Under the pieces are notes generated by a model, which worked only from the letters and a program-made list of their open reading frames with translations, was not told where the DNA came from and made no database searches. Source: Thermococcus sp. LS1 (GTDB lineage: Archaea; Methanobacteriota_B; Thermococci; Thermococcales; Thermococcaceae). Taken from it: DNA of 64,000 nt. The stretch is taken from assembly GCF_012027395.1 (NCBI RefSeq), contig NZ_SNUJ01000002.1, positions 434,001 to 498,000 on the forward strand, read 5' to 3'. A program made the translations under genes and the position numbers. Positions within the stretch are counted from its first letter, which is position 1; the number at the start of each line of letters is the position of its first letter. Shown one piece after another: positions 8,757 to 33,250 of the stretch.

Positions 8757-9026
8757 TCACCCTTCCCTAATATCGAGCCCCGGTGGTGTAGCCCGGTCAA
8801 ACATGCGGGCCTTTCGAGCCCGCGCCCCGGGTTCAAATCCCGGCCGGGGCACCAAAACCGCGCTCCTCTCAATTCTGCGCCCTTCTACAGTCGAGAGCCG
8901 CTCTATAATCGCATCTTCTATGAAACGAGACCTGTTATAAGTCGCTTTGTCTAAAAGTTCGAGGACTTCTGGACTAATCGTGATATGTATAGTTTTGCGG
9001 AGCCTTCTCGGCCGTCTTTTAGACAT
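8757..9026 (-). CDS. int(N): RHH-containing N-terminal part of the split integrase
   Basis: ATG 9026 follows GGAGGG with 7-base spacing. The frame runs 89 codons through attL into the tRNA and stops at 8757. Residues 1-45 (RKTIHITISPEVLELLD, then TYNRSRFIEDAIIERL) form a ribbon-helix-helix domain; residues 59-72 are the translation of the att site. In the excised circle this continues into int(C) to give an integrase of about 363 residues. In the integrated state the product would be an RHH protein with a short tail encoded by tRNA sequence, able in principle to bind DNA but not recombine. Confidence 0.85.
   Translation of the reverse strand: MSKRRPRRLRKTIHITISPEVLELLDKATYNRSRFIEDAIIERLSTVEGRRIERSAVLVPRPGFEPGARARKARMFDRATPPGLDIREG
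8777..8854 (+). tRNA. tRNA-Glu (anticodon UUC), host site of the integrated element
   Basis: A full cloverleaf: acceptor GCCCCGG pairs with CCGGGGC, a D arm follows, the anticodon stem CGGGC/GCCCG encloses loop CTTTCGA with anticodon TTC at 8813-8815, the T arm contains GGGTTCAAATCCC, and discriminator A plus CCA are encoded at 8851-8854. The 3' half from the last base of the anticodon stem onward is the left copy of the 48-bp attachment repeat, so the gene stays functional after integration. Confidence 0.96.
8810..8857 (+). repeat. attL, 48-bp direct repeat
   Basis: Identical to 33060-33107. It runs from the anticodon stem through the encoded CCA and three further A residues. It also lies within the coding frame of int, where it encodes VPRPGFEPGARARK on the minus strand. 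Confidence 0.95.
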
Positions 9027-9053
9027 ATAAAGCCCTCCAAAGGCTGTTCCATG

Positions 9054-9083
9054 TGTGGCCACACGTGGCCACATGTAGCCACA
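9054..9083. promoter_or_regulatory. Three tandem 10-bp near-palindromes upstream of int(N)
   Basis: TGTGGCCACA, CGTGGCCACA and TGTAGCCACA follow one another without gaps, 28-57 bases before the int(N) start and just after a TATA-like AAATTTTT on the minus strand. Tandem palindromes of this spacing (one helical turn) are typical RHH operators, so autoregulation by the integrase N-domain is inferred. Confidence 0.7.
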
Positions 9084-9135
9084 CTGAAAAATTTGGCGCC
9101 CCAAGGATATAGCCATTGTGGTCATGGGCTTCACC

Positions 9136-9600
9136 TCAGATCTCGCCGGCCCTCCACAGGTTGTAGAATTTTGTCAGCGTGTTCAGCTTCTCAACGAATT
9201 CCCACGAGAGGTTGAGCCTGTTTGAAGTCCTGGACACTATCCCGAGCTGAATGAGCGTCTTCTTGACTATGCTCCAGTCCTTCCTCAGCTTTGCGGCGGG
9301 ATAACCTCTCTCGCGGAGCTCCTTCTCGATGAGCTTGTTTATCCTAGTCTTCGTGATCTCCCCCTCGTCGAACTTGTTCAGGAGCTCGTGGTACTGCTCA
9401 AGCAGGTTCTGCTCGCCGAGGTATTCGAGGATGACCTCAAGCCAGTCTTCAGTGTAGGTCTCCCTCTTCTGCCTCAGCCGCTCGAGGAGGGTTTCGGCTA
9501 TGCCTATGCGGTGCTCGTCGTCATCGAAGATCAGCTCAAGGAAGTTGTAGAGGCCCTTGAGCTTGAACTCGTTCTCAGGCAGGGCTATTTTGGGCTTCAT
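9136..9600 (-). CDS. Unrecognised element protein with probable C-terminal winged helix
   Basis: 154 residues, mostly helical and charged. Residues 85-150 (ITKTRINKLIEKELRERGYP, then RKDWSIVKKTLIQLGIVSRT) have the helix-turn-helix plus wing pattern of a winged-helix domain. The start ATG overlaps the preceding small frame's stop as ATGA and has GGGGTGA upstream. It is the last complete gene of the left operon, next to int(N). Function unknown; DNA binding is inferred. Confidence 0.7.
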   Translation of the reverse strand: MKPKIALPENEFKLKGLYNFLELIFDDDEHRIGIAETLLERLRQKRETYTEDWLEVILEYLGEQNLLEQYHELLNKFDEGEITKTRINKLIEKELRERGYPAAKLRKDWSIVKKTLIQLGIVSRTSNRLNLSWEFVEKLNTLTKFYNLWRAGEI

Positions 9601-31885: not shown

Positions 31886-32188
31886 TCACCTCCTCAGCTT
31901 TTCAAAAAGCTCAAGCTCGGCCTTCTTCAGCTCGCGAAGGCCGAGCAAATACTTCAAGTGTTTCTCAACATCTCCACGCCAAGCAGGCATTGAAATCCAG
32001 CTGTGAAACTTCGCCCTCCGTCCGCCTTTTCTGAGGGTCTCGATGTGCATCTCGATTTCCATGAGCTGTTCCTCCACGAGGCGCCAGGGACGGGCTATGG
32101 TGTCGTAGAGCAGAATGATAAAGTAGAAGATAATGAGGCCAAGGAGCGAGAGCACTAGCGTTTCCCTTACAGCCTCGGTCGTGTTCAT
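31886..32188 (-). CDS. 100-residue membrane-anchored protein
   Basis: ATG 32188 overlaps the integrase stop (ATGA). One N-terminal helix (TLVLSLLGLIIFYFIILLY) and a basic helical cytosolic part. Translationally coupled to int(C) when the integrase gene is whole, so it may be expressed mainly from the circular form. Confidence 0.65.
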   Translation of the reverse strand: MNTTEAVRETLVLSLLGLIIFYFIILLYDTIARPWRLVEEQLMEIEMHIETLRKGGRRAKFHSWISMPAWRGDVEKHLKYLLGLRELKKAELELFEKLRR

Positions 32189-33107
32189 TTCCCTCCCTCC
32201 AGCACCTTCTTCAGGTCATCCACCACTGCAGAATACCACTCATCAGCCAGGAGCTCAAGGTTGAGATAGTGACGCTCTATGACCGTTCTCGGCGCCCTAC
32301 CCTGGATATAATCAATGACCTCCAGGGGGACTCCCTGACGGGCCAGAAAACCGCTGAACCATTTCCTGACTGCTGAAGACGAGAAGACAACACTCTTTTC
32401 CGTGTTCCTGATGCTCCGTATCTTTACCCTCATCCTCGCGTGGACGCGCTTGTAGCTGATGTCCACCCTCTCGAGCCTCTCTGCGAATTCCCTTGGAAAA
32501 TACGCCCAAAACGTCTGCTTCTGTCCCCTACCAATTCCGCTCATTGGATATTTTGCTACAGTATCCCCATAGAGAACTAGTTTGTCCGGATCGAACTCGT
32601 TGAGCATCCTGACGATATGCTTGAGCCTTTGCCCGCTGTACACTAACGCCTCGTAGATCAAGGCTAGGAGCGGATCCTTTTGGAGGTAATACTCGTAAGC
32701 AATCCTGATCTGCTCGTCGGAGACGTAAACTCTCCTGACCCCCGTGGGCTTCAGCTTGATGATGTCTTTAAGGTCGAGGTATTCAGTGCGGCTGATGAGG
32801 CCTCTGTTCTTCAGAAAAGTTATGAAGTTTCTCAGAGACTTTGCAAACCCTCTATTGTAGTTTTCTTTCACGAGAGCTTCGTCGAGAGAGGCCTTATCGG
32901 TTATTCTGTACTTTCCAAAGAACCTTTCGAGGTACCGCATGTAGCGCTCCTTAGTCTCCTCTGTGGCCAGTTTTACGGAGAGCCACTGTTCAAATGCCTC
33001 TTTATGCTGAGACCAAAGAGCATTAAGCCCTATTTCGCTAGAGGACGCTTCTAATGCCCCCTTTCGAGCCCGCGCCCCGGGTTCAAATCCCGGCCGGGGC
33101 ACCAAAA
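32185..33107 (-). CDS. int: int(C): catalytic part of the split SSV-type integrase
   Basis: The frame enters from attR and encodes about 291 residues after the att-encoded ARARK. Tyrosine-recombinase landmarks are YSGQRLKHIVRM (first Arg), a Lys-bearing KYPMSGIGRGQKQ, SSAVRKWFSGFLARQG (box II with Arg), and GRAPRTVIERHYLNL ending in the likely nucleophile Tyr. An N-terminal SAM-like core-binding domain precedes them. It has no proper start of its own, so catalysis needs the excised circle in which it joins int(N). Confidence 0.9.
33060..33107 (+). repeat. attR, 48-bp direct repeat
   Basis: Exact copy of 8810-8857: the original 3' half of the tRNA-Glu gene left at the right end after integration. 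Confidence 0.95.
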
Positions 33108-33250
33108 TTCCCCCAAACGCTGTTCTACAAGAAGCTTCACAATTTTAGGAGGCTCATCCCCAAAGAGAGCCCACCGCAAAAGGCTGTTTATAAAACGGGA
33201 CCTATTGTAAGTCATCCCTCAAGAGGTTCCACGACTTTTCAACCCAAAGC
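33108..33250 (-). pseudogene. Decayed int(N) relic of an earlier element
   Basis: The minus strand 33189-33212 encodes TYNRSRFI, identical to residues of the living int(N); 20 of 24 bases match 8919-8942 and all four differences are at third codon positions. Similarity extends upstream (GTCGTGGAACC versus GTCCTCGAACT, and AAAxxxCAT) but with a one-base deletion and an in-frame stop. It lies on the same side and strand of attR as int(N) does of attL, as expected if another related element once sat here. Confidence 0.75.

Follow-up and report, generated by a model that had tools for sequence, protein, structure and literature searches.

The integrase of a Thermococcus mobile element begins with a ribbon-helix-helix (RHH) domain that, to judge from sequence comparison, very probably binds an array of short sites in its own promoter. 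Integration splits the integrase gene downstream of this domain and leaves an 89-residue fragment, int(N), at the left end of the element, together with the promoter and the array. The RHH head is probably an autorepressor domain of the integrase, and from it we infer that integration would leave a self-contained autorepressor, which would bind the array, repress the int promoter, be expressed in the integrated state and act in trans.

The window, a stretch of 64,000 nucleotides (G000:C2:434001-498000), contains a mobile element of 24.25 kb lying between exact 48-bp repeats inside a tRNA-Glu(TTC) gene. The features on which the argument depends are these:

8777-8854, plus strand: tRNA-Glu (TTC), the integration target.
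8810-8857, plus strand: attL, 48 bp, the 3' part of tRNA-Glu.
33060-33107, plus strand: attR, 48 bp, an exact copy of attL.
8757-9026, minus strand: int(N), an 89-aa open reading frame comprising the RHH domain (residues ~10-48), a part encoded by att and a final tail antisense to tRNA-Glu.
8883-9026, minus strand: coding part of the RHH domain, residues 1-48, with the predicted DNA-contact strand T12-I13-H14-I15-T16.
9033-9038, minus strand: Shine-Dalgarno-like GGAGGG ahead of the int ATG, found by inspection.
9054-9083, no strand assigned: operator-like array of three abutting 10-bp sites.
9054-9063: array unit 1, TGTGGCCACA, a perfect palindrome.
9064-9073: array unit 2, CGTGGCCACA, a palindrome with one mismatch.
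9074-9083: array unit 3, TGTAGCCACA, a palindrome with one mismatch.
9105-9112, minus strand: TATA-like box CTATATCC, placed by positional clustering among relatives.
32185-33105, minus strand: int(C), the catalytic half of the tyrosine recombinase, with a PF16795 match.
33138-33230, minus strand: remains of a decayed RHH int(N) that belongs to a different operator class and directly adjoins attR (E=6e-6).

The att site lies inside the int gene, so that integration splits the gene, as in the pT26-2-like suicidal integrases. When int(N) and int(C) are joined across att, a single frame of 363 aa results, which is 36.9% identical to the pT26-2 integrase (t26-1p) over 96% of the length. The published criterion for the pT26-2 type is a minimum of 30% identity across 60% of the length (PMC8371274), and the reconstructed integrase falls within it. 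An unsplit relative (G043:C4) has the same layout in one open frame of 418 codons between stops. The catalytic domain was expected on the far side of the element and is found there: int(C) matches PF16795 (Phage_integr_3) over its full length, positions 2-161 of 161, with E=2e-53. The further claim, that the integrated state allows nothing but a DNA-binding fragment to be produced, was too strong. The int(C) frame is open for 319 codons between stops, with a TTG as a possible start, and expression of int(C) from TKV4, also of the Thermococcales, has been suggested by trans-complementation in vivo (PMC8371274).

The gene at 9136-9600 on the minus strand, directly upstream of int, encodes 154 aa and has near-identical copies only in two other genomes (G040 and G019). 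Its product, which resembles an excisionase in a weak PHROG match (E=0.005), is a possible directionality factor or co-regulator. At G016:C13:15764-16708 an int(N)-like piece (query residues 26-68) stands ahead of int(C) in one frame of 350 codons, possibly a chimeric integrase rebuilt through re-integration beside a relic.

Sequence profiles and a structure model support an RHH (MetJ/Arc) strand-helix-helix fold as the predicted fold of the int(N) head. An AF2 model from the single int(N) sequence, of modest confidence, has a strand at residues 12-16 and helices at 19-30 and 34-48. A second AF2 model, built from nine sequences, has both helices and is missing the strand, which can be read as a consequence of the lacking dimer partner. 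Direct Pfam matches of int(N) are weak (CcdA, 0.03-0.08); over 13 family members all of the matched families are RHH-type (CcdA, BrnA, RHH_1 and RHH_5), each match again being weak. Profile matches in the PDB, weak when taken singly, include the solved RHH proteins Rv0298, CopG and NikR. A PDB search with the single int(N) sequence and a PHROGs search of int(N) gave no match, and Foldseek with the int(N) model, a tiny monomer of modest confidence, returned nothing at E<=0.001. By analogy with Arc, residues 12, 14 and 16 of the strand are expected to face the DNA. H14 is invariant in 13 aligned family members. The RHH coding sequence is under purifying selection, with omega about 0.1-0.4, a measure that cannot separate the stages of the element's life and that could stem wholly from the circular one.

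The array lies between the TATA-like box and the int ATG. Its identity at a lag of 10 is 16/18, a value equalled in 0 of 300 shuffles, and three in-phase copies thus exceed chance. The anatomy given in the original prediction, an RHH domain with its start codon, ribosome site, promoter and three 10-bp palindromes, was confirmed, two of the palindromes having one mismatch. When 94 Thermococcales genomes were searched for the 20-bp core of the array with up to 2 mismatches, it was found in 14, one copy in each, and in every case an RHH int(N) follows 17-31 bp downstream; the control, the same pattern reversed, gave 0 matches in the same 94 genomes. Across 13 aligned loci the site proximal to the int ATG does not vary, and conservation of sites 1-2 exceeds that of the RHH coding DNA. 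At one locus (L018) the array is 10 bp closer to the ATG and in a different reading frame. The array is therefore conserved as DNA, not as peptide, and a conserved peptide-coding sequence at this place is ruled out. TATA-like matches mostly fall 109-128 bp ahead of the H14 codon, a distance that in the window's group puts them ~15-30 bp upstream of the array; compared with shuffles no single match reaches significance, and the promoter signal consists only of this positional clustering.

Related integrases carry other arrays in the same position. Searches with pT26-2-type and Pyrococcus-type heads yielded 55 distinct loci, including the plasmids pT26-2 and pGE2, and most of these have an array at the int start whose sequence varies between classes. 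In pT26-2 and pGE2, the most closely related plasmids, GTGGGCC direct repeats recur every 10 bp in the same place. Further classes have GTGGGAC...GCCC...GCCCAC, ~9-bp repeats ending in GTGGCCACT, or GGAGGAATCCTCC. Repeat symmetry is significant for some of the array classes alone and not for every class.

This diversity follows the predicted DNA-contact residues. Among the 55 loci array similarity tracks residues 12 and 16 once helix identity is corrected for (partial Mantel, r=0.14, p=0.0005), a test from which shared ancestry is not fully removed. The buried strand residues 13, 15 and 17 are not correlated with array similarity (p=0.94, 55 loci), nor is flanking DNA correlated with the contact residues (p=0.70, 55 loci). 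Tyrosine or histidine at residue 16 goes with GGGCC/GGCCCA (18/22 vs 1/33, Fisher p=9e-10), and GTGGCCAC occurs only with T, S or A at that residue (21/33 vs 0/22, p=5e-7). GGAATCCTCC is accompanied by D12 at L145/L146 and L150, the helices of which differ (p=0.0009 within that background), and L144 and L146 have their helices in common and differ in strand and operator. The suggestion that the RHH domain reads its own array draws support from this covariation across the family, and, given the negative controls, direct recognition is the simplest reading of it. Because operator and strand are physically close, they could also be inherited together through recombination. In the pairs L144/L146, L147/L150 and L122/L157 helices or promoter are common while operator and contact strand differ, or vice versa; it looks as though operator and contact strand had been swapped together as one module.

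A second, distant RHH int(N) is present in the same host (G000:C1:350308-350631, L190), antisense to tRNA-His. Upstream of it is a 12-bp direct-repeat array of ACACGGGTATTT type with 16/18 identity at a lag of 12. With L190 the RHH-plus-array layout, as read from sequence, extends beyond the pT26-2 subgroup. It is the one further clear array in a wider set of RHH-headed int(N)s, in which several loci are without one.

Autorepression would operate as follows. RHH dimers would sit side by side on the array, about one helical turn apart, and by occupying this stretch, which separates the TATA-like box from the int ATG, would block initiation at the int promoter. While the element is circular, the full-length integrase would be both repressor and recombinase, and would thereby limit its own level. 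The cut made by integration falls downstream of the RHH domain, and so keeps promoter, operator, ribosome site and RHH together at attL in the form of the ~89-residue int(N). The whole of the tRNA-Glu gene (8777-8854) is overlapped in antisense by the 3' part of int(N), and int(N) could hold the int promoter quiet and so limit antisense transcription through the tRNA. Elsewhere in the genome the 5' end of this tRNA-Glu is matched perfectly only by the CTC isoacceptor, and a quiet int promoter would therefore plausibly protect a single-copy tRNA. The action of int(N) could, moreover, extend in trans to related elements that share its operator. The switch at integration, as originally predicted, is a sound hypothesis.

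That the split leaves the RHH domain of int(N) intact holds here and in at least six relatives: an intact int(N) with its array is present in G000, G055, G041, G016, G001, G040 and G030. It is possible, if somewhat doubtful, that autoregulation takes place only in the circle and that the integrated int(N) is an inert pseudogene fragment, the usual assumption for suicidal integrases; int(N) and int(C) are regarded as inactive pseudogenes in a review of the subject (PMC8371274). Many relic int(N)s have decayed, among them L016, L017, L019, L022 and L025, which shows that an integrated copy does not last for ever. In an informal count of genomes, int(N) without int(C) was not clearly more frequent than int(C) without int(N). 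For pSSVi of Sulfolobus an int(N) transcript was looked for and not found; against inertness, int(N) transcripts have been reported for pXQ1 and XQ2 of S. solfataricus (PMC8371274). Promoter, operator and RHH are, besides, physically intact after the split, and one genome (G030, 99% complete) retains int(N) and array at the same tRNA-Glu without int(C), a search of the genome having given no PF16795 match. At this orthologous tRNA-Glu (G030 C1:1204842-1208000, L081/L082) only int(N) and the array are recognisable. The flanking host genes there are inverted relative to the tRNA as compared with the window, an arrangement that suggests an inversion through att.

The main alternative to a pure operator, a possible one that has been weakened, concerns what the array is for. 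The three sites could be arm-type recombination sites and the RHH head an arm-binding domain, repression of the promoter being a by-product. The P' arm sites P'1-3 of lambda Int also abut, and the three abutting ~10-bp sites of the array resemble them; the array, in addition, lies within the element, some 200 bp from att at the attL end. The arm-type sites of KplE1 IntS overlap and repress the intS promoter (PMC2951348). We nevertheless consider arm-site use unlikely, since the pT26-2 integrase, IntpT26-2, recombines in vitro with the tRNA-derived att sequence alone and needs no cofactors (PMC8371274). There is, besides, a single array: at <=2 mismatches its core has no second copy in the host genome, and none is present on the int(C) arm. 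The array also stays at the promoter while the att targets differ (L011-L015 vs L002). Operator and arm-site roles could coexist, as in KplE1 IntS.

The reading of the array as an operator can be carried further. Tentatively, and with rather low expectation, we propose that the stand-alone repressor made by integration is produced from attL and would silence its own and matching int promoters, operator/RHH pairs forming immunity groups that are exchanged as modules between integrases. A strict form, in which int(N) represses or poisons incoming integrases of the same operator class and co-resident elements must differ, is improbable. Operator classes are diverse, and co-resident pairs share the same contact code in 2/25 cases vs 4.7 expected, a depletion that is not significant (p=0.12). 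The co-resident elements L116/L159 and L126/L153 have nearly identical promoters and differ in operator core and residue 16. Against exclusion, depletion of co-residence with broader classes is not significant (p=0.23), and the similarity of whole promoter regions in co-resident elements shows no depletion (p=0.68). The relic at 33138-33230 encodes a decayed RHH helix region (TYNRSRFINSLLRWALFGDEPP) in a frame shifted from that of int(C). Because this earlier int(N) abuts attR, the tRNA-Glu must have been targeted earlier by another element, albeit one of another class. Immunity to re-integration, a part of the original prediction, is accordingly weak, neither supported nor contradicted: the tRNA was targeted twice, once by an element of another class, and co-residence within a class is not significantly depleted.

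That the array consists of chance repeats or forms a hairpin in the 5'-leader RNA is highly improbable: its palindromic units could pair in RNA, but the array is kept in 13 loci and found only at int promoters, the distal site is frequently TGTAGCCACA, in which pairing is broken, and pT26-2-type arrays are direct repeats whose inverted symmetry is not significant, so that the hairpin is rejected on the evidence of repeat symmetry.

In IS1 InsA, IS911 OrfA and the KP product of the P element, an N-terminal DNA-binding fragment of a recombinase is a repressor. These fragments arise by frameshift or internal deletion, not by integration. In mycobacteriophage BPs immunity depends on integration by way of the gp33 repressor (PMC4557955). 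The attachment site is likewise within the gene for a DNA-binding regulator, a role that int(N) would take here, and integration alters the product; however, a dedicated repressor there sheds a degradation tag (PMC4557955), whereas here the integrase itself sheds its catalytic half. KplE1 IntS is an autoregulated, tRNA-associated integrase that represses its own promoter beside attL at a tRNA, as the present integrase would. It differs in staying whole and in using arm-type sites (PMC2951348), where the element in the window has a separate RHH domain and array and a split gene.

Self-splitting integrases, autoregulated integrases (PMC2951348) and integration-dependent repressors (PMC4557955) are thus already known singly. 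The pT26-2 family of suicidal integrases (SSV-type, type I) shares the att site inside the gene, insertion into a tRNA gene to give int(N) and int(C), and PF16795, and the pT26-2 integrase itself shares the RHH head and the 10-bp-spaced array. The SSV1 integrase is also self-splitting and has PF16795, but its N-terminus is PF07935 (SSV1_ORF_D-335) and gives no RHH match. In the papers on these integrases that the analysis covered, the main one (Badel et al., 2020, MBE) aside, the RHH head, the array and their covariation are not mentioned. The proposed union of autoregulation and integration-dependent repression in a single integrase that splits itself, with operators that have diversified, appears to be new.

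The persistence of self-destroying integrases and the control of integration and excision have been described as open questions for archaea (PMC8371274). A head that would read its own promoter, is intact after the split and is paired with diversified operators offers a concrete, testable control circuit. The approximately 55 natural protein/operator pairs are material for study of the evolution of RHH specificity, and operator diversity may help to explain how related elements come to coexist in the same cell. In the Archaeoglobus profundus pleomorphic provirus 1 (BK065154.1, L080), a separate annotated gene of the CopG family of RHH proteins is found right after an int(C)-like integrase.
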